Made by a program: the position numbers and the translations under genes | Part shown: positions 26-35,946 of the stretch, piece after piece | Position numbering within the stretch: the stretch's first letter is position 1 | Layout of the letters: the number at the start of each line of letters is the position of its first letter | Notes under the pieces: model-generated | The model's database searches: none | Told to the model about the DNA's origin: nothing | Seen by the model: the letters and a program-made list of their open reading frames with translations, nothing else | From: a virus | DNA length: 58,398 bases | Direction: 5' to 3' (one strand) | IMG/VR virus record: IMGVR_UViG_3300022928_000003 | Coordinates: 1-58,398 of that record

Positions 26-796
26 GGTGGCTAGTTTTTCAACCCCACTATAATAAAGTTGTGCTTCACCACCATCTTGACCAAGAAACATTTTTTGACC
101 ACTTGTATTTGTGATACGAACATTTGCTGTTCCTTGTAAATATAGGTCACCATCACCATTGTCTTTTACATAGCTATTACTACCATCGTGATAAATTTGC
201 AAGTCAGACCCTGCACCAAATATGGCTTTCTCATTGTCTGCAAAAGTTAGACTTCCTGATAAGTTTACATCTTGAGAAGCATCAACTGTAAAAGCCGTTG
301 ATCCACCAGTAGCAACTGTGATAACGTCTGAACCAGAAAATGTAATCGATGTGTTTGTATCTGCATCACCAGATATTGAATCTAATTGAATGCTTCCAAC
401 ATTAGTTAAGTTGGCATCACTCATATCTAATGAGCCAGTAACATCTAAGTTACCAGAAACACTTAAATTACCTGCCATTGTGACGTTACCATCAAACACG
501 CCACCATCTGCCTTGCTTACTGTATCAGCTACAGAGAATACATCGTAAACAATAATCTCAACAATATCATTAACGGACAACCCTGGATCAAAAACAATAG
601 ATGTACCACTAGTGGCAGTGTAATCTGCATCACCTAGCTTTACACCATTAACATACACATCAACGTAGTTGCTATCTCTGTAGCTTAAAGAAACGCCCTC
701 GGCCCCCGCTCCACTGAACGTTGTCTGTGAAGCAGTAGCAGTATAGGTATGTTTTTGTCTAACTCCGTTGGAAGGAGATACTCCTATGTATGCCAT
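1..796 (-). CDS. Long tail fibre 3, N-terminal part (continues at the other end of the window)
   Basis: The ATG at 796-794 overlaps the stop codon of the upstream fibre gene by one base (TAATG). The frame is open to base 1 and resumes at 58373 after the 25-bp overlap. The joined gene would be 2583 nt, 860 residues, close to its paralogues of 875 and 910. The N-terminus (MAYIGVSPSNGVRQKHTYTA) followed by a beta-rich domain with a DVYVNGVKLGDADYTAT motif resembles virion-attachment domains of marine phage fibres. Next comes a section with LQIYHDGSNSYVKD, also present in the fibre at 3702-6434. Receptor-binding fibre is the inferred role. The split is an effect of where the circle was opened, not a broken gene. 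Confidence 0.85.
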   Translation of the reverse strand, partial: MAYIGVSPSNGVRQKHTYTATASQTTFSGAGAEGVSLSYRDSNYVDVYVNGVKLGDADYTATSGTSIVFDPGLSVNDIVEIIVYDVFSVADTVSKADGGVFDGNVTMAGNLSVSGNLDVTGSLDMSDANLTNVGSIQLDSISGDADTNTSITFSGSDVITVATGGSTAFTVDASQDVNLSGSLTFADNEKAIFGAGSDLQIYHDGSNSYVKDNGDGDLYLQGTANVRITNTSGQKMFLGQDGGEAQLYYSGVEKLATTNTGIDVT

Positions 797-3432: not shown

Positions 3433-3681
3433 CTAAGCAGTATACCCTTGACCTGCTGTGATTGCAGCATTAACCGCTGTCATATCTTCATCTGTCCAAT
3501 AGTCCTTAGCCACCATAATTTCTAAGTGTGCTACGTTCCTATCAACACAGTCTTGCTTTTCTTCAGCTGTATCATCTGCCATTTCTGTACCTGCAATGAT
3601 TGCATTGATAAGGTCTACTGAGTGACCCATAGCTGTGTAGTCTTGTGCTATTTCTTCTGCTGTTTTTTCTATGTCTGGCAT
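3433..3681 (-). CDS. Small acidic tail-region protein (82 aa)
   Basis: A short acidic protein starting MPDIEKTAEEIAQDYTAMGH. It is rich in Ala, Asp and Glu and predicted helical. It lies between fibre 1 and fibre 2, with gaps of 9 and 20 bases, and has an AAGGAGA ribosome site just before the ATG. Proteins of this type occur beside fibre genes in marine phages, possibly as fibre assembly or attachment factors, but I recognise no domain and assign no function. Confidence 0.75.
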   Translation of the reverse strand: MPDIEKTAEEIAQDYTAMGHSVDLINAIIAGTEMADDTAEEKQDCVDRNVAHLEIMVAKDYWTDEDMTAVNAAITAGQGYTA

Positions 3682-20982: not shown

Positions 20983-21269
20983 TATCTAATCCCTTTAAAC
21001 ATTCCGCCTCTGCCTTTGGCAACACCGCCCATGTTCATCTTCTTAACTTTACCACCGTCCATCATACCAACGGGCATGGACTTGGTTGTGTTTACTACGC
21101 CACCATCTGCTTTTTTTGCTATTTTGCCTAAAACAATTTCTTTTATTCCTGCGGGAAGGTTTTTCATTGGATTAGCTCCTCGATTTGCTTTAACCAAAGT
21201 ACCTTCAGATTTTAAAATATTTTCTGCAAGTTTTTGCATTTTTGAACTCATTTTATTTTTACCAGCCAT
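20982..21269 (-). CDS. Small basic glycine-rich protein (95 aa)
   Basis: MAGKNKMSSKMQKLAENILK, then PMKNLPAGIKEIVLGKIAKK, then a tail with GGKVKKMNMGGVAKGRGG. The tail matches the C-terminus of its upstream-coordinate neighbour (GGKVQKMKYGGVAKGG), suggesting a duplicated motif. It is coupled to TerL and the 262-aa gene by single-base overlaps. Function unknown, virion-associated likely. Confidence 0.7.
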   Translation of the reverse strand: MAGKNKMSSKMQKLAENILKSEGTLVKANRGANPMKNLPAGIKEIVLGKIAKKADGGVVNTTKSMPVGMMDGGKVKKMNMGGVAKGRGGMFKGIR

Positions 21270-22753
21270 TAGTAATACTCCATTTTTCTTCTATATCCTG
21301 GTTCAAACTCTTCATCGTCAGGTGTGGATATAAAACCACCTTGTCTGAATCTTAGTATAGCCTGTGTCATTGAATCTGCCAAGTCATCATGATCTCCATG
21401 TGGAAAACTCGCACATTCCTCAACAACTTCCTCTGCAAAATTAGCATCTGGTCTCCATACCATACCACTTTCAAACACAGGTGCGCAAGCATTCATCCTT
21501 GCAAACTTATCAGCACCTTTGCTCGGTGTAAAGGGTGTAACAGGAATACCCATACGTCTTAATTCTTGTGTTAAAGGTGTACCACTTGCTTTTTGCTCTA
21601 TCAATATCATGTCTGGATCATAAGCATCGCTTAATTCATAAGCCTTTTGCTTCAGTTCTGGGAAATCCCATCTGCCCTTCTCTGCATCAAGTAAAATAAT
21701 TGCATCACCCTCACCTTCTACTGGTGTAAATATCCCCCAAGTAGTAATAGCACTAAAGTCAGCACGATCATTTTTACTGAAAGCGGTATCGTATGATTGT
21801 ATGATATATGAGCAGGGAGGTGGTTCAGCATGATCCCAAACATTCCACCATTCCCTTTTTATTATAGCTCCTTCTTCTGCCGTTGGGTTTTGCATATACT
21901 GTGCATTCCACTTGGCTACTGGAATTGACGCTTTTACTCCGTCTAATTCCTCTCGACTCCAATATTCGGGCCATAGTACATTGTTTGTATCTGGAAATAT
22001 TGCAGGAAACTCCACGACTTCCCATCTATCTGCTCCTCCTTCAGCTTGCTTAGATATAACCCTAGCTGTTAAATCTTTAATACCCCATCTAGTCATAACA
22101 ATAATAATTGAACCACCTGGCTGCAATCTTTGTCGAGGACCTGACGTATACCACTCATAAATACCATCAAGTGCAGTAGGGCTTAGTGCATCTTGTTCTG
22201 ATACTGGATCATCAATGATACATAAATCTGCACCACGACCAGCTAACGCACCACCCACACCAACAGCGTAATATTCACCACCACCATTTGTTGACCATCT
22301 ACCAGATGCCTTCGCATCACTTGCTAATTTTATATCAGGAAATATATCCCTGAAGTCATCGCTATCAATTAAGTTCTTGACTTTACGTCCAAAACCTACT
22401 GCAAGTTCTGCCGTGTGTGTCGCTTGTATTATCTTCAGATCAGGTCGTCTGCCCATAAGCCACGCTGGAAACAAGTAACTAGCAAACTCTGATTTAGTAT
22501 GTCTTGGCGGCATATTGACAATCAAACGCTTAATTTTGCCGTCAGCTACTTTTTGCAACTTGTCCGCATATATTTTGTGATGTTTACCCTCAATGAAAGT
22601 GGGCCAAATCTTCTTTACAAACTTTAAATAATTTTCTTGACTTGTTTTCTGCTCTTCTAAAACTTTAAGACGATCAAGAAGAGGAGCCATCTTAGAGATT
22701 TCATCATCACTAAGATATTCTGCAAAATCTGAGGCTTGTAAAACCTGATCCAT
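21269..22753 (-). CDS. terL: Terminase large subunit (494 aa)
   Basis: The ATPase domain has a Walker A-type loop NMPPRHTKSEF (80-90), a Walker B LCIIDDPVS (about 177-185) and RWGIKDLTARV. The nuclease domain has IIQSYDTAFSKND, MILIEQKASGTPL and FPHGDHDDLADSMTQA, supplying the acidic metal ligands. This is the TerL motor that pumps DNA through the portal and cuts genome ends. Length is normal. The start overlaps the stop of the 843-aa gene. The small subunit lies 7.5 kb away at 30275. Confidence 0.94.
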   Translation of the reverse strand: MDQVLQASDFAEYLSDDEISKMAPLLDRLKVLEEQKTSQENYLKFVKKIWPTFIEGKHHKIYADKLQKVADGKIKRLIVNMPPRHTKSEFASYLFPAWLMGRRPDLKIIQATHTAELAVGFGRKVKNLIDSDDFRDIFPDIKLASDAKASGRWSTNGGGEYYAVGVGGALAGRGADLCIIDDPVSEQDALSPTALDGIYEWYTSGPRQRLQPGGSIIIVMTRWGIKDLTARVISKQAEGGADRWEVVEFPAIFPDTNNVLWPEYWSREELDGVKASIPVAKWNAQYMQNPTAEEGAIIKREWWNVWDHAEPPPCSYIIQSYDTAFSKNDRADFSAITTWGIFTPVEGEGDAIILLDAEKGRWDFPELKQKAYELSDAYDPDMILIEQKASGTPLTQELRRMGIPVTPFTPSKGADKFARMNACAPVFESGMVWRPDANFAEEVVEECASFPHGDHDDLADSMTQAILRFRQGGFISTPDDEEFEPGYRRKMEYY

Positions 22754-25329: not shown

Positions 25330-25716
25330 TTAATTTATTTTTGACAATAGAAAGCCCATTTCTTTATGGCTTTGAGCTAAAATTTTAGAAACCATGTCAG
25401 AATTTGCAGAAATATCGTCCTTCATTTTCTTCATAAGAGCCTCAATCCTGTCAACATCCCATTTCGTCAATGGCTCTTCATACTTTTTAACCTCATCATG
25501 CAATTTATCCATCTTATCCATGTTTTTACACAAATATTTCGCTGATAAAACTACAGATATCGGAACTGGTTTCGTTCCATGCTCATAATGGTTCCACATC
25601 CTATGGCTCAAACCTAATTTCTTCGCCATGTTTACCTGACTTATTCCTAATTGATTGCGATAATTCAACATTTCATTGTTTTTTACTTTCGCATAGCTGT
25701 TTTCGTTACGTTTCAT
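25330..25716 (-). CDS. HTH (Xre-type) transcriptional regulator (128 aa)
   Basis: The segment MLNYRNQLGISQVNMAKKLG followed by LSHRMWNHYEHGTKPVPISV is an Xre/Cro helix-turn-helix, with the recognition helix near residues 37-46. The C-terminal part is helical (EALMKKMKDDISANSDMVSK). It precedes the late block, so it may control it. Start has AAGGAGA. It is one of two candidate regulators (with 43790-43981) that could bind the palindrome CGAACAATTGTTCG; this is a guess. Confidence 0.8.
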   Translation of the reverse strand: MKRNENSYAKVKNNEMLNYRNQLGISQVNMAKKLGLSHRMWNHYEHGTKPVPISVVLSAKYLCKNMDKMDKLHDEVKKYEEPLTKWDVDRIEALMKKMKDDISANSDMVSKILAQSHKEMGFLLSKIN

Positions 25717-26228: not shown

Positions 26229-26258
26229 TAGACCGTATAAAATTAATTATACGGTCTA
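26229..26258 (-). terminator. Intrinsic terminator of the amidoligase gene
   Basis: TAGACCGTATAA (26229-26240) pairs perfectly with TTATACGGTCTA (26247-26258) around a 6-base loop. On the minus strand a run of seven U follows. It lies ten bases past the stop codon of the amidoligase. Confidence 0.88.
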
Positions 26259-26268
26259 GATTTAAACC

Positions 26269-27474
26269 TTAATTTCTAAAAGGTTTTAAGTTTGATTTAT
26301 ATTGGTTGTCTAATCCAAGTAATAAATTTGTACCGCCATTGTTAGCGAATACAGCACCGCCAGAGCCACTATTTACTTGTAATGGTACTTCATAGCCGTT
26401 TAGATCATAACGTCCTTGAGAAGAGCTGTAAGCGTGATTATAGTGTTGTTGATTATGAGTGATTAAAATATCACGTCCAAACTGATTAATTAAGTTTGGT
26501 CTTATTTGCTCACTTATCATAGACCTAACACGCTGAGCGGTTTGAATACCGCTAGCATCCATGATCTCTTGGACTGTAGCACCGCCAACACGTCTCATTA
26601 ATGAGTATGCTATTGATTGTCTAGTACGACTAGAGCGCCCAATATAAGACGGTGTATCAATAACGGCTTGCACTTGGTTATGTCTATTAACAATTGAGTG
26701 TCTTTGCATGTTAGATAAAAACATCATCCAAGACCATATTTTATCAATTTCTAAAGTACCGCCATGCGATCTAAATTCTACAGTTTCATAATCATCCCAA
26801 TGATTAAGATTAATAGCTGAGAATTTACCGCCAACTGAGATAACACGTTTTAATTTGTGCCAAGTACACTCAGTATTTTTTATAGTACTTGGCGCTAATG
26901 GTTTTTTGCAAAAATAACCGTTTTTTTGTCTTGCTCTTCTCATAGGCTCAACTGCATAACCACCATCATCAATTCTTGACGGCGCAAGCAAAGAATTAAA
27001 CTGTATAATATTTTTGCTTACTCTGTATCCCATATCTTTAACAATCTCTAAAGGTATAGCATCACCAAAATAATCAGTACCATTGCGACTAGGTAAAGCT
27101 CGTCCATGAATAGCAGTATATTCAACTGATTTATCATGAAAATCATTTGGATCAATTGTTATTGGTCGTCTAGATAAATGAACATGAATGGATGCAGTCC
27201 AATTGACGGTTGCGCCATGATCGTTCAATTGTTCGAGTACTGATTTTAAATAATTATATGATTTTTGAGAATTACTTAAAATTGGTAATCTTGCCTCGCC
27301 GTCAACTCTTGAACCATCATATACATACTCTAGACCTTTTATTTTATTTGAGCCTAGTGAATTGTTATAACGGTTCATTTCAGTATAAGACCTTGTATTA
27401 AATTCAGGTTCTACACCAAAAACAAAATTTTGGTTATCGAATATGTTTTTATTTGTGTTAATTGTATCAAACAT
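26269..27474 (-). CDS. Amidoligase (Amidoligase_2, carboxylate-amine ligase) (401 aa)
   Basis: The pattern matches the phage/bacterial amidoligase family with a glutamine-synthetase-like fold: FGVEPEF (19-25), EYVYDGSRVDGEARLPILS (49-67), SIHVHLS (95-101) and TVEFRSHGGTLE (about 230-241). These carry the Glu, Asp, His and Arg expected for metal-ATP and carboxylate binding. Family members are predicted to join a carboxylate to an amine, for example to put amino acids or peptides on cell-wall or protein targets. A gamma-glutamylcyclotransferase-like gene is next upstream, a pairing reported for this family. It has its own promoter-like region and terminator. The substrate cannot be told from sequence. 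Confidence 0.8.
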   Translation of the reverse strand: MFDTINTNKNIFDNQNFVFGVEPEFNTRSYTEMNRYNNSLGSNKIKGLEYVYDGSRVDGEARLPILSNSQKSYNYLKSVLEQLNDHGATVNWTASIHVHLSRRPITIDPNDFHDKSVEYTAIHGRALPSRNGTDYFGDAIPLEIVKDMGYRVSKNIIQFNSLLAPSRIDDGGYAVEPMRRARQKNGYFCKKPLAPSTIKNTECTWHKLKRVISVGGKFSAINLNHWDDYETVEFRSHGGTLEIDKIWSWMMFLSNMQRHSIVNRHNQVQAVIDTPSYIGRSSRTRQSIAYSLMRRVGGATVQEIMDASGIQTAQRVRSMISEQIRPNLINQFGRDILITHNQQHYNHAYSSSQGRYDLNGYEVPLQVNSGSGGAVFANNGGTNLLLGLDNQYKSNLKPFRN

Positions 27475-27541
27475 TTTGTTTATCCTTTTTTAGTTATTGT
27501 TTGGTTTTTAGGCGCATTTTGCCGCCTAAGTTTTAATTAGG

Positions 27542-27570
27542 TATATAAGGTAATGATTACAAGTATACCA
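27542..27570 (-). promoter_or_regulatory. Promoter-like site upstream of the amidoligase
   Basis: On the minus strand it has a -10 TATATA (27542-27547), the spacer word AATCATTAC seen in the other accessory promoters, and a poor -35 (TGGTAT). The shared spacer suggests the same control, perhaps with an activator making up for the weak -35. Confidence 0.5.
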
Positions 27571-27627
27571 CCAAAATTAATTTGCTAAGTCATTGTTTTT
27601 ATTGAGAAACTTTTTTTGCTTTACCTC

Positions 27628-27803
27628 TTGACAATATTATTTAACAAGTTAATTAAATTTTCATTAGGAGGATATAGGGGGGAGGATCTAGAAAATGATT
27701 TGGGCAGGGGGCGAAATCCCCGATCCCCGATCAGTGTCCTGCCCGATCCGAACAATTGTCCGATTGCCTTCCAGAAAAAACCCAGATCCTGCTGGGCTTT
27801 TTC
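27628..27803 (+). ncRNA. Possible plus-strand structured transcript (low confidence)
   Basis: TTGACA (27628-27633), 17 bases, then AATTAA form a weak promoter on the plus strand. Downstream is a strong hairpin in which GGGCAGG (27702-27708) pairs with CCTGCCC (27738-27744), then the bidirectional terminator at 27775-27802. A 55-codon ORF from ATG 27695 with GGAGGA upstream overlaps the terminator and looks fortuitous. It parallels the better candidate at 29744-29854. Confidence 0.3.
27775..27802 (-). terminator. Intrinsic terminator of the cyclotransferase-like gene
   Basis: CCCAG (27781-27785) pairs with CTGGG (27792-27796). On the minus strand the stem is followed by UUUUUU, and on the plus strand by CUUUUU, so it can work both ways. 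It lies 23 bases past the stop codon. Confidence 0.82.
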
Positions 27804-27816
27804 AGGGGCTGGTTAT

Positions 27817-27825
27817 CGAACAATT
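27817..27825. repeat. Iterated motif abutting a stop codon
   Basis: CGAACAATT overlaps the TAA of the gene at 27825-28292. The stops at 28574 and 29281 are joined to the motif in the same way. Confidence 0.7.
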
Positions 27826-28292
27826 TACCTCCATGACCTGCCTCCACGCCTTGTTTGAATAACCCTACCTGCTTCCTTCTCGTAATCGAAGGCTTCAACA
27901 ACTGCGTCAAGAAGTTGTTCGGTATCTAGCTGGAAGTCTTCATACCCCTGCTTGATTGCGTCAAAGTATCTTTTGTTCGGAACAGCCTGACCTGCGTAGT
28001 TCATTATATAAATCATACCTTGAGTCATGCCCATGTACGACAGATCAACATATTCCTTTCTGTAAAGATTTGGGTAACCCTCAAAGATGTCTAAGTTTCT
28101 CTCATCTTGTTCAGATATTTTCCACAACCCCACAGGAACGCTATGCTTCTCTGACGGAACGATACTCGCCACGTTGTTGAATATCAGTTTGTACCCCAGT
28201 AGATTTGTCTTACCTACTGGAACTGCATCAGGCGATCTAGTCGCCATATTCTTTTTGTTAAGGTTTGCACCATAAGCTATGTATATTGCCAT
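27825..28292 (-). CDS. Gamma-glutamylcyclotransferase (GGCT/AIG2)-like protein (155 aa)
   Basis: The start is set at ATG 28292 (MAIYIAYGANLNKKNMATRS) because AAAGGAGAG lies just upstream and the longer frame would begin inside the promoter. YGANLN (7-12), the beta segment KTNLLGYKLIFNN and DIFEGYPNLYRKEYVDL with the presumed catalytic Glu fit the GGCT/AIG2-like fold. Family enzymes release 5-oxoproline from gamma-glutamyl compounds. Together with the amidoligase it could make and unmake a gamma-glutamyl-type bond; that is inference. It has its own sigma70 promoter and terminator. Confidence 0.83.
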   Translation of the reverse strand: MAIYIAYGANLNKKNMATRSPDAVPVGKTNLLGYKLIFNNVASIVPSEKHSVPVGLWKISEQDERNLDIFEGYPNLYRKEYVDLSYMGMTQGMIYIMNYAGQAVPNKRYFDAIKQGYEDFQLDTEQLLDAVVEAFDYEKEAGRVIQTRRGGRSWR

Positions 28293-28322: not shown

Positions 28323-28351
28323 AATATATAGTAATGATTGCATGTTGTCAA
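28323..28351 (-). promoter_or_regulatory. Sigma70-type promoter of the cyclotransferase-like gene
   Basis: Minus strand: TTGACA (28346-28351), 17-base spacer containing GCAATCATTAC, TATATT (28323-28328). Near consensus. The start codon is about 30 bases downstream of the -10. Confidence 0.85.
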
Positions 28352-28424: not shown

Positions 28425-28573
28425 TGCGTACTGTTCCTGGCTGCGCACAGGAAGGAAACCGAACAATTGTTCACCTGCAGCCAGGAGGAAGGGGGGGGGT
28501 GGACAATTGTTCGAGCTGGACGCAAAAAAAACAGGAGCCGAAGCTCCCGTTTCCCGATCCGATCCCGAACAAT
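28425..28573. repeat. GC-rich island B with two iterated palindromes
   Basis: A block of about 150 bp that is much richer in G and C than its surroundings. It carries CGAACAATTGTTC (28460-28472), ACAATTGTTCG (28503-28513) and CGAACAATT (28566-28574), the last touching the stop codon of the next gene. It also holds a run of nine G, CCTGCAG/CCAGG words and a UUCG-loop terminator. No ORF on either strand looks real. Confidence 0.75.
28524..28548 (-). terminator. Intrinsic terminator with UUCG loop
   Basis: On the minus strand GGAGC-UUCG-GCUCC, with GG/CU flanks, is followed by eight U (28531-28524). It ends the message of the gene at 28574-28927. Confidence 0.88.
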
Positions 28574-28927
28574 TTATGCTGCAGTAATCTTCCTTCTGTC
28601 GATCATATCCCATTTAGCAACGATTTCTTCGCCTAAGATATAAACATACATATTAACAACCTTTTCAGGGTCTGAAATGTCTGTTGTTAGTTTACCAAAG
28701 TTAAATTCTTCATAGTCTTTGATAATGCCAATAACATTAAATGCCTCTTCTCCCAGCCATTTCTTAGCTTTGTATGTGCCAATTATGTAATAGTCTGTAT
28801 TAAAAGCGTTGTGGTGTACGTCTGTCCAGTCGTCATTGTCTGGTGTGTTTTCTTTTAACCAGTCTTGAAAGTATTCTTCTACTTCCTGATATTTGAATGT
28901 GTTCTTGTCTATGTCTGTAAATTGCAT
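28574..28927 (-). CDS. Acidic early protein of unknown function (117 aa)
   Basis: MQFTDIDKNTFKYQEVEEYF, DWLKENTPDNDDWTDVHHNA, FNTDYYIIGTYKAKKWLGEE. It is acidic (many Asp and Glu) with mixed helix and strand. Small acidic, single-promoter phage genes of this type are often anti-host or anti-restriction factors, but no family is recognised. It has its own promoter (28961-28989) and terminator. The stop codon is fused to a CGAACAATT motif. Confidence 0.78.
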   Translation of the reverse strand: MQFTDIDKNTFKYQEVEEYFQDWLKENTPDNDDWTDVHHNAFNTDYYIIGTYKAKKWLGEEAFNVIGIIKDYEEFNFGKLTTDISDPEKVVNMYVYILGEEIVAKWDMIDRRKITAA

Positions 28928-28960: not shown

Positions 28961-28989
28961 AATATAGTGTAATGATTGCAACATGTCAA
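28961..28989 (-). promoter_or_regulatory. Sigma70-type promoter of the acidic early gene
   Basis: Minus strand: TTGACA (28984-28989), 17-base spacer with GCAATCATTAC, TATATT (28961-28966). The -35 box overlaps the stop codon of the small gene at 28986-29144. Confidence 0.87.
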
Positions 28990-29144: not shown

Positions 29145-29281
29145 TTTGACCTCCTGCTGTTAACCCCGAACAATTGTTCACCTGTGCGTGACCTGCTGGG
29201 GGGGGGCTGCTTCTCGAACAATTGTTCGCCCTGCTGCCAGAAAAAACAGGATCAGGTTTCCCCGATCCCGTTCCGAACAAT
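29145..29281. repeat. GC-rich island C with two full palindromes
   Basis: It contains CGAACAATTGTTC (29167-29179), a run of G (29199-29206), CGAACAATTGTTCG (29215-29228), a terminator and CGAACAATT (29274-29282) overlapping the stop codon of the gene at 29281-29646. It has the same order of parts as island B. Confidence 0.75.
29241..29269 (-). terminator. Intrinsic terminator in island C
   Basis: Minus strand: GGGATC (29269-29264) pairs with GATCC (29253-29249) across an unpaired centre, followed by UGUUUUUU. Weaker than the others but in the same place relative to its gene. Confidence 0.68.
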
Positions 29282-29646
29282 TAGGCTGTTACTAAATTGT
29301 TCGTTGATTTGCCAGTTTCGTGAAGTCTGTGCTGCCATTCAATAACTTCGTCATTGACCAATGTTACAGCTCTTTCGCTGTGTCCACCAACATTCCACAT
29401 CATTATCTGACTAACTCTCTTACCCTCTGCTCCTAAGTAATTAAGTCCGTTCTTATAATTATATATGGTTGCTATTGTGCCATCTTCAAACTTGATAGCC
29501 CATTGAGCATCTACTTTGTTATCAGACTCCTCAGACCATTCAAATCTTGTTGGCTCTCCGAAAACTTCTACCAGCTCCTGATAAGTTGCCCCAACATTAC
29601 CCTGAAGATGTGTTCCATAAGTTGTATTTGTTTTTTTAAATTTCAT
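29281..29646 (-). CDS. Conserved phage/mobile-element protein (121 aa)
   Basis: The start is set at ATG 29646 (MKFKKTNTTYGTHLQGNVGA), with AAGGAA upstream; the longer frame begins in the promoter. GTHLQGNVGATYQELVEVFG, then a KVDAQWAIKFEDGTIATIYN region, is a conserved family I associate with phages and integrative elements (usual form GTSLQGY...FEDGTVATIYDWK). Small alpha/beta fold; no known activity. It has its own promoter and terminator. Confidence 0.78.
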   Translation of the reverse strand: MKFKKTNTTYGTHLQGNVGATYQELVEVFGEPTRFEWSEESDNKVDAQWAIKFEDGTIATIYNYKNGLNYLGAEGKRVSQIMMWNVGGHSERAVTLVNDEVIEWQHRLHETGKSTNNLVTA

Positions 29647-29681
29647 TGGCTTAGTTCCTTGTGTTTGTTTAACTTGATATA

Positions 29682-29710
29682 TATATAGCAATGATTGCCA
29701 CATGTGTCAA
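29682..29710 (-). promoter_or_regulatory. Sigma70-type promoter of the 121-aa gene
   Basis: Minus strand: TTGACA (29705-29710), 17-base spacer with GCAATCATTGC, TATATA (29682-29687). Confidence 0.86.
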
Positions 29711-29854: not shown

Positions 29855-30260
29855 GCGCAGCCTCCAGGGAACCTGCCCGAACAATTGTTCATGCGCAGCA
29901 GGAACGCCTGGAGCTGCAGGTGAAGGTTTCCGAACAATTGTTCCAGCAAGCAGGTCAGGCAGCCAGGCGAAACTCCGATCCTTCCAGGCTGCAGGGCTTC
30001 TTTTTCCGAACAATTGTTCACGCAGGAGGCTGTCCAGCCAGGTAGATCCCGATAACGCTGCTGGATCCAGGGATAACCTGCTGCCGTTCCGAACAATTGT
30101 ACGATCCCCGCTGCTGGAGAAGCCCGATCCCGTTCCGATTCAGGGGGGGGTGACCTTCCTGAAGCCGAACAATTCTCCCGATTACGCCCAAATCCAGCCC
30201 CGATCACCCCGATCCCGCTGCGAGTCCGAACAATTCTTCGGTCTCCGTGCCTACACCCTG
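29855..30260. repeat. GC-rich island D with six iterated motifs
   Basis: About 400 bp without a convincing gene. Motif copies are at 29878-29890, 29931-29943, 30007-30019, 30090-30100, 30166-30174 and 30227-30235, every 53-83 bases. Between them are GC-rich words (CCTGC, CCAGG, GATCCCG, CTGCAG) and a run of eight G. ORFs on both strands here lack ribosome sites and have odd composition. Confidence 0.75.
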
Positions 30261-30274
30261 TCTAAGTAAATATG

Positions 30275-30802
30275 CTAGTTTTTGGGTTTTACGCTACTTT
30301 GTTCTATCAAGTCTGGGTCTTTATGGGATTTGTTCGCTATTTTCATGCGTTTCTGCGCAATGTCTTGAAATTCCTGTAGTTTTGACAATATTTCCTCCCT
30401 TGTCATGCTATCTGTTCGTTCATGTAGCACATGAGCCTTGTTTACAAGCAGTCCAGTAGCTTTTAAACGCAGTTCCTCAGCTCTGATAGCCTCACCAAAC
30501 TTCCCGCTCTCCCACGCCTCGTTACGAATCTTCAACAAATCCCGCACCGACTTATCAATTGTGACCCCGAAGCGACTACGGGCTTCCTCACGCATTTCCT
30601 GATATCTTTCCTGCACGACTGGGTTACGCAACAACCTCACAGCATCGACTCCAGGGTTTGCGTATCCCGCTGCTCTAGCAGCCGATGTCTGCGTCATATC
30701 CTTGTGCATAAAGTTATTCAGAAAATCTTGCTGTTTGTCAGTCAATCTTTTCCATCCAGCTAATCGCTGTTCCTTCGTTAAATTCTCAGCTACTTTTGGC
30801 AT
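30275..30802 (-). CDS. terS: Terminase small subunit (175 aa)
   Basis: LTDKQQDFLNNFMHKDMTQT followed by SAARAAGYANPGVDAVRLLR is the N-terminal helix-turn-helix of the Terminase_2-type small subunit. Then come NPVVQERYQEMREEARSRFG and coiled-coil helices (EAIRAEELRLKATGLLVNKA). TerS binds the packaging site and regulates TerL. It has an AGGAGA ribosome site. It is 7.5 kb from terL, separated by the accessory block, and it is preceded by the GTAAGT repeat array, a natural candidate for its DNA site. Confidence 0.88.
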   Translation of the reverse strand: MPKVAENLTKEQRLAGWKRLTDKQQDFLNNFMHKDMTQTSAARAAGYANPGVDAVRLLRNPVVQERYQEMREEARSRFGVTIDKSVRDLLKIRNEAWESGKFGEAIRAEELRLKATGLLVNKAHVLHERTDSMTREEILSKLQEFQDIAQKRMKIANKSHKDPDLIEQSSVKPKN

Positions 30803-34936: not shown

Positions 34937-35111
34937 CTTCCCCACCTGCTTTAAAGTAACTTTCATCTGGAACGCATACCCAGCAATGCCAATTCCATCC
35001 TCCATCAATAGAATACGAAGCTCCAGACTTGCCACAAATCGAACAATTATTCGGTTTTTGTTTTGTTTGCACAACTGGTTGCCAAGTTCTTCTTCGACTT
35101 TGTTCACTCAT
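34917..35111 (-). CDS. Second small zinc-binding protein (64 aa)
   Basis: The start is set at 35111 (MSEQSRRRTWQPVVQTKQKP), overlapping the Mom-like stop by 8 bases. NNCSICGKSGASYSIDGGWN is followed by WHCWVC, giving two CxxC pairs with an aromatic middle. The next gene's ATG lies inside its 3' end. Such linked zinc proteins beside mom suggest a control or partner role; unproven. Confidence 0.72.
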   Translation of the reverse strand: MSEQSRRRTWQPVVQTKQKPNNCSICGKSGASYSIDGGWNWHCWVCVPDESYFKAGGEDDAKMY

Positions 35112-35946
35112 TATCTTTCCTCCATTTTTCGTACAAAGCATTCATTGGCACATCTCTTTTAAGATACGGGTAAACCCGAACATTTTGACATTTCAATAAA
35201 TCCTTCAGCTTTTTTTTATCTCCAAATGTTAGAAAATATTTTAACTTTCTGCTACCTTTTTCAAATAAATATCCTTTATTAATAAAACTTTGTTTTTGTT
35301 CTTGGCTTGTAACGCCCAGTTTATTGGCGTATTTGTGTATTAACTTTGGATCAACACGCTTGCCATCTGGTCTAATTAGATAATTAACTGGAGATGTAAA
35401 TCCATAAAAATGCCAGTTCGTAGCCTGATATAATGTTCCGATCTCTCCCGCTTCAGGATCAGAATAAGCAATAACAAAGTTATACCCTTTCTTAATTAAA
35501 TGTTTCTTAGCTTGACCAATCATCCAACTACCTGAATGGGGGTGAGCATGACTGGCGCAAGCTCCTCTGACTAATACAATACCTAAATGTTTGTTATGAT
35601 CTCCGAACAATTCTGACAAAGCTCCTGTTCCAGCAGTCAAACCAAAACACATAACACCAACTAAATCATCATCACAGAACATACCTAGACTAAACTTTGT
35701 GGTTCCCATAGTACCCAGCCACTCATATTTTAGTATAAAATTTTGAGCCATTTTAAATGGTATTTCGTGCATTACAGCGTTTTTTATGCTTGATCTTGGT
35801 CTATTGTCATCTAAACTTTTTCGCAACTGGTATTGAAAACAAACTTCATCAAACTTCTTACCCCTGTATCCAACTGACCTGTTAGCCATTTTGTAACCTG
35901 TACGACTTTTCCACAAGTTTACATGATTAAACAAATCAAACTGCAT
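35104..35946 (-). CDS. Mom-like DNA (adenine) modification protein (280 aa)
   Basis: KYEWLGTMGTTKFSLGMFCD (about 73-92), DLVGVMCFGLTAGTGALSEL, LVRGACASHAHPHSGSWMIG (about 125), then FVIAYSDPEAGEIGTLYQAT followed by NWHFYG (about 158-183), and a C-terminal RKLKYFLTFGDKKKLK. This is the layout of the GNAT-related Mom family, including the SYxD...G..YQA.NW.Y.G core. Mu Mom adds an acetamido-type group to adenine N6, shielding phage DNA from restriction. Length (280) is a little above Mu Mom (about 240). It lies between the primase-helicase and two zinc ribbons. Confidence 0.8.
   Translation of the reverse strand: MQFDLFNHVNLWKSRTGYKMANRSVGYRGKKFDEVCFQYQLRKSLDDNRPRSSIKNAVMHEIPFKMAQNFILKYEWLGTMGTTKFSLGMFCDDDLVGVMCFGLTAGTGALSELFGDHNKHLGIVLVRGACASHAHPHSGSWMIGQAKKHLIKKGYNFVIAYSDPEAGEIGTLYQATNWHFYGFTSPVNYLIRPDGKRVDPKLIHKYANKLGVTSQEQKQSFINKGYLFEKGSRKLKYFLTFGDKKKLKDLLKCQNVRVYPYLKRDVPMNALYEKWRKDNE

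Follow-up and report, generated by a model that had tools for sequence, protein, structure and literature searches.

A co-regulated, separately transcribed pair of putative amidoligase and cyclotransferase genes in marine phages, with a ligase possibly tethered to phage DNA

Pairs of amidoligase and cyclotransferase (GGCT) genes have been annotated in phages since 2009, and in the literature on these pairs we found no identified substrate. We examined one such pair in a 58,398-base virus record (the window, meaning the whole stretch of DNA analyzed), in which every recognized gene lies on the minus strand. Identity to the proteins of Pelagibacter phages HTVC027P and HTVC023P and their relatives, a marine lineage, is about 60% for the window TerL and about 49% for the portal. 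The amidoligase gene, AMID, and GGCT lie in a variable region flanked by TerS (30275-30802) and TerL (21269-22753). In close relatives the gene order is TerS, variable cassettes, GGCT, AMID, f02, f03, f10, TerL. Locus L024 keeps much of this TerS-to-TerL order although its AMID is only 31% identical. Both genes were present in all five other long records examined. Elsewhere in the window, a gene for a Mom-like DNA modification protein lies at 35104-35946 (phrog_1384, 4e-30), and PADLOC gave no relevant defense match.

That amidoligase-cyclotransferase pairs had already been described in phages was part of the original prediction, and the pairing is indeed known outside the window lineage. In Arthrobacter phage Kovu, GGCT, amidoligase, and glutamine amidotransferase genes are consecutive. 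The pairing is also present in Bacillus phage 031MP004 and in the Heliusvirales gut phages NatCom_24097 and NatCom_34063. It is likewise on record for Clostridium clostridioforme prophages (PMC11318856) and for Phage-ZRK32 (PMC10945688), and in the LUZ24-like phage UFV-P2 the two lie a few genes apart (PMC3890496).

Both open reading frames were found where the original prediction had drawn them, with their motifs intact, and profile searches upheld the proposed families. AMID matched PF12224 (4.3e-8; 33.8 bits against a curated cutoff of 22), as did 40 of 40 aligned members, the relatives being 24 to 79% identical to the window protein. Residues E22, E24, E60, H97, H99, D147, R167, E233, R235, K245, R264, and Y361 are invariant across the 40 sequences. 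Seven of them (E22, E24, E60, H97, H99, E233, and R235) supply the FGxExE, Glu, HxH, ExR pattern, which is what a glutamine-synthetase-like active site should show. A structure model made from this alignment reached a pLDDT of 87.8 and a pTM of 0.75, and it was used instead of an earlier, poor model from 10 sequences (pLDDT 63). The top nine Foldseek matches in the PDB were carboxylate-amine ligases or Pup enzymes throughout: YbdK, its Salmonella homologue, GshF, gamma-glutamylmethylamide synthetase (GmaS), PafA (two chains), and Dop (three entries). The best E value was 5.4e-4 at a TM score of about 0.3; since this score is low, support for the fold comes from the ranking and the conserved residues, not from an active-site superposition. 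A profile search of bacterial genome contigs found no relative of AMID. AMID is thus predicted, from family and fold, to be a carboxylate-amine ligase that uses ATP and has the glutamine-synthetase fold; it would form an amide bond, most likely gamma-glutamyl or isopeptide, on some amine.

GGCT matched PF06094 (GGACT/AIG2; 3.1e-10, 41.1 bits against a curated cutoff of 22.8) and phrog_2520 (1.6e-29), and its profile matched human GGCT at 7e-16. The YGxNL motif and the predicted catalytic Glu of the GGCT/AIG2 family are both present. Across 31 aligned sequences, Y7, G8, and N10 of YG.N, the LD..E71 motif, and Y77 are invariant. Glu71 aligns with a human GGCT residue that is Glu in the wild type; the aligned 3cry chain has Gln there. 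The mechanical open reading frame begins 17 codons earlier than the gene given in Table 1, on whose 155-aa start the relatives agree. The protein would take off gamma-glutamyl groups as 5-oxoproline.

Three features were absent from the original prediction: a winged helix-turn-helix (HTH) domain at the C terminus of AMID, the gene f02 after AMID, and a 9-mer, CGAACAATT, that tracks the AMID lineage and dominates the local intergenic DNA. Judging from profile matches and the model, the last 120 or so residues of AMID make up a winged-HTH-type domain (DUF3489/HTH_24 type), which probably binds nucleic acid. DUF3489 was matched by 18 of the 40 members (best, 5.5e-9) and HTH_24 by 3 of the 40. The window's own AMID scored only 0.17 for DUF3489, so the assignment rests on the relatives. 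In the model, the domain consists of helices at 285-293, 301-308, and 313-332 plus strands. A tblastn search with two family members against 50,697 phage records did not find the winged-HTH tail, with the limit that distant versions may escape it. The other phage amidoligases aligned to AMID over the catalytic part only, give or take a few residues.

The tail bears on what the pair may do. The substrates of AMID and GGCT could be free amino acids or gamma-glutamyl peptides, handled in a shortened gamma-glutamyl cycle that moves nitrogen or glutathione precursors during infection. The nearest solved fold of AMID is that of YbdK, a gamma-glutamylcysteine ligase, with GshF close behind, and the window GGCT resembles human GGCT. 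Phage-ZRK32, which has the same kinds of genes, is reported to promote growth on ammonium (PMC10945688). However, a winged-HTH tail is needless on a purely metabolic enzyme, and neither a glutathione synthetase nor a glutamine amidotransferase was recognized among the neighboring proteins scanned. We therefore consider auxiliary metabolism unlikely, though the likeliest of the rival accounts. Another suggestion comes from Iyer et al. (2009), who predicted, as cited in PMC10580990 and PMC11318856, that phiEco32-type amidoligases modify cell-surface or peptidoglycan peptides and so block superinfection. For AMID this is improbable, because a domain of winged-HTH type suggests a place in the cytoplasm and at nucleic acid.

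We then considered how the two genes are expressed (Table 1). The safest statement is that AMID and GGCT occupy separate cistrons, end at terminators of their own, and are co-regulated through GYAATSATTRC promoters. Both the individual terminators (a hairpin and T-run after each gene) and the shared promoter type had been part of the original prediction. The palindrome GYAATSATTRC occurs five times in the window against 0.17 expected, and four copies are at the promoters of GGCT, AMID, a 117-aa gene, and f05. For GGCT, f05, and the 117-aa gene, its place is the spacer from TTGACA to the -10 element. The fifth copy is at 3593, outside the cassette region. There is also a hairpin, TTTAGGCGCATTTTGCCGCCTAAG, at 27507-27530 in the AMID 5' leader. 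The predicted independence of the genes holds in a stronger sense as well: some members of the lineage have GGCT on the far side of TerS and on the opposite strand, with AMID still downstream. Because GGCT is sometimes apart from AMID, a shared substrate is something that we infer. The gene content between TerS and GGCT differs among relatives, which suggests cassette shuffling in this interval.

Table 1. Positions of genes, regulatory elements, and repeat clusters at the AMID/GGCT locus, numbered along the window
Feature	Position	Strand	Remarks
XRE-type HTH protein f03	25330..25716	-	Weak Pfam/PHROG HTH matches; candidate regulator of GYAATSATTRC promoters
f02, 79 aa	25713..25952	-	Regular follower of AMID in relatives, distant ones too
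AMID intrinsic terminator	26229..26258	-	12-bp stem, then T7
C-terminal winged-HTH part of AMID	26269..26637	-	Residues ~280-401, core 285-345; DUF3489/HTH_24/HTH_23 matches among members
AMID, Amidoligase_2 gene, 401 aa	26269..27474	-	GS-like catalytic domain (residues ~15-280) plus C-terminal winged-HTH domain
Palindrome GTAATCATTAC of putative AMID promoter	27550..27560	-	Degenerate -35, TTATAT-like -10
9-mer copies downstream of GGCT	27749..27825	.	One overlaps GGCT stop codon (TAAATTGTTCG)
GGCT intrinsic terminator	27781..27796	-	CCCAGCAGGATCTGGG (CCCAG-CAGGAT-CTGGG), then T6
GGCT (GGCT/AIG2), 155 aa	27825..28292	-	Predicted catalytic Glu71 in LDIFEGYP; protein start MAIYIAYGANLN
GGCT promoter TTGACA-N17-TATATT	28323..28351	-	11/12 sigma70-type match; spacer palindrome GCAATCATTAC (28331-28341), kept in relatives
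9-mer/palindrome copies between GGCT and the gene before it	28460..28574	.	One overlaps stop codon (TAAATTGTTCGG)
Intrinsic terminator of gene upstream of GGCT	28534..28547	-	GGAGCTTCGGCTCC, then T-run
Promoter of neighboring 117-aa gene	28961..28989	-	Same GYAATSATTRC spacer palindrome at 28969-28979
Promoter of neighboring gene f05	29680..29710	-	Same GYAATSATTRC spacer palindrome at 29688-29698
GC-rich noncoding array	29878..30239	.	Downstream of TerS; six AATTGTTCGG copies, three being full GAACAATTGTTC palindromes

What reads these promoters? Of 40 loci that have the f03 HTH gene, 33 carry at least two GYAATSATTRC sites in the TerS-AMID interval, as against 0 of 7 that lack it; several of the 40 loci are the same contig fetched again, and by contig the count is 22 of 28. 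Because the operators are found almost only where f03 is present, f03, encoded two genes downstream of AMID, is probably the protein that reads them and is a candidate regulator. In the equivalent TerS-TerL region of HTVC027P, expression of gp33 and gp34 peaks early to middle, and that of gp30 peaks early and late (PMC12753301). By analogy with that region, AMID and GGCT may be expressed early.

The DNA around the two genes carries a second, far more abundant word. We found that CGAACAATT is the most overrepresented 9-mer of the window, with 47 copies against 0.45 expected, or about 100-fold. Both strands and all reading frames hold copies of CGAACAATT/AATTGTTCG, in coding and noncoding DNA alike, and the copies are densest at 26 to 32 kb, around AMID and GGCT. 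In the intergenic DNA there, they often form the full palindrome GAACAATTGTTC. The real unit is the 9-mer, and an exact search for the 14-base palindrome undercounts it. CGAACAATT is also the top 9-mer or among the top few in G001, G004, G007, G008, and G018 (10 to 34 copies against 0.2 to 0.6 expected). L128 and L147 are enriched in a variant of the word, AAATGTTCG/ATGTTCGGG, beside or in place of AATTGTTCG.

The 9-mer and AMID occur together. When viral contigs were scanned for the 14-base palindrome only, leaving proteins out of the query, 119 stretches came back, 62 of them with at least two sites, and proteins of the AMID lineage are encoded in 55 of these 62. Among 80 TerL-related contigs picked without regard to CGAACAATT, 49 copies were counted in the 54 kb of the 4 contigs with AMID (0.53 expected) and 2 in the 678 kb of the 76 without detected AMID (5.2 expected). 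This association is confounded by shared ancestry and by incomplete contigs; the AMID-free contigs are mostly another TerL clade, and many do not span the AMID region. In bacterial genome contigs, the 9-mer-pair pattern gave scattered matches, mostly single pairs, among the matches listed. Sites are mostly common to orthologues above about 70% identity and mostly shifted below it; the primase gene of G007 (60% identity) has five sites, at positions that differ from those of the window's three. As sites turn over between orthologues, it seems that the density of CGAACAATT is kept and not its position.

Within the cassettes, copies at 28566-28574, 29274-29282, and 27817-27825 overlap or abut stop codons (TAAATTGTTCGG, TAATTGTTCGG), directly before the terminator. 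Motif copies at 27748, 28459, 29166, and 29877 are spaced by 711, 707, and 711 bases, perhaps by chance.

Several explanations of the 9-mer were considered and set aside. It is not a positional promoter element, as orthologues less than about 70% identical mostly have their sites in different places. RNA structure in the GC-rich arrays was rejected, the fold energies being near those of shuffles (z of -1.4 and -1.0; single units mostly about 0), and the arrays had no Rfam match near the gathering score. We do not favor f03 as the reader of CGAACAATT: f03 is absent downstream of f02 in L090 (G001), L038, L110, and L116, and the 9-mer stays. The GYAATSATTRC operator suits f03 better. The core of the dnaE2 SOS box of Mycobacterium tuberculosis (PMC8607333) has exactly the letters of the full palindrome CGAACAATTGTTCG, which recalls the SOS (LexA) boxes of actinobacteria. 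However, such boxes have the form GAAC-N4-GTTC with a variable center and stand at promoters, whereas records of the window lineage hold 10 to 47 copies each, the center is almost always AATT (8 of 9 window sites), and most 9-mer copies are half-palindromic, with many copies lying within genes. In addition, the nearest cultured relatives of the window phage infect Pelagibacter, and the SOS-box match is actinobacterial. A LexA box is therefore not favored. A literature search on the motif letters returned no phage paper among the matches listed, and CGAACAATT seems to be undescribed as a phage genome word.

On balance, we think that AMID and GGCT are a ligase/cyclotransferase pair, co-regulated and separately transcribed, in which the ligase is possibly tethered to phage DNA. 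From the computed family membership, conserved residues, architecture, promoters and terminators, and motif enrichment with its AMID association, we infer the enzymatic activities, the opposing roles, and the tethering. The two enzymes would make and undo, or limit, one modification. Tethering is suggested by the DNA-binding-type tail together with the CGAACAATT association: the winged-HTH domain would bind nucleic acid, and its best candidate site is the phage-specific 9-mer. A bolder version would make AMID a sequence-guided enzyme, whose tail binds scattered CGAACAATT sites and so restricts the chemistry to phage DNA; GGCT would be the eraser. The chemistry might then fall on DNA, on DNA-bound protein, or serve as a self-mark. 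We consider this version unlikely.

The same tail, and the tracking of AMID by CGAACAATT, would also suit DNA hypermodification, in which AMID, guided by its winged-HTH domain, couples a base or base precursor to an amino acid or another acid, GGCT trims it, and the 9-mer serves as target or landing site. The Mom-like gene of the window fits this account, as do the base hypermodification genes of the related HTVC023P-type pelagiphages (PMC9599517). However, among the proteins scanned we recognized neither a thymidylate synthase nor a precursor pathway for base modification. Phage base-modifying pathways are also not known to target a single 9-mer, and we give hypermodification little credence. 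Pup-like tagging, in which AMID would join the small protein f02 to its targets, is highly improbable: f02 (79 to 94 aa) regularly follows AMID, the nearest folds of AMID include PafA and Dop, and f02 has a weak UBA-like match below the cutoff, but the f02 C termini are variable (ETSQ, ANET, DEAR, EIID) and have no Gly-Gly-Glu end.

A ligase fused to a DNA-binding-type domain, together with a 9-mer dense only in AMID-bearing phages, is a concrete and cheaply testable hint about what such enzyme pairs act on. A 9-bp word whose density appears to be kept in a marine phage group is unexplained, is comparable to Chi or uptake sequences, and is of interest even if it is unrelated to AMID.

Finally, we compared the locus with known systems. 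YbdK and other carboxylate-amine ligases, GmaS, PafA, and Dop are the nearest solved folds to AMID and have the FGxExE, HxH, ExR pattern in common with it; AMID differs from them in a TM score of only about 0.3, about 10% identity, and an additional C-terminal domain. The cassettes resemble the PeSLs of T4-like phages (PMC4503421): in both, junction elements separate the single genes of a variable region, each gene having a promoter and terminator. However, the window belongs to another phage group, and its junctions bear CGAACAATT copies. The closest likeness in gene content is to the known phage amidoligase-GGCT modules, including those of Iyer et al. (2009), in which Amidoligase_2 and GGCT genes are adjacent or a few genes apart, as in the window lineage. 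Several of these modules have ATP-grasp or GATase partners, whereas none was recognized beside AMID and GGCT in the window. Two Heliusvirales loci that we examined had no enrichment of the CGAACAATT palindrome, unlike the window. The phage amidoligases that matched AMID did so over its catalytic part only. The winged-HTH tail of the window AMID appears to be an addition beyond the known pairs, and it looks like a DNA-binding domain.
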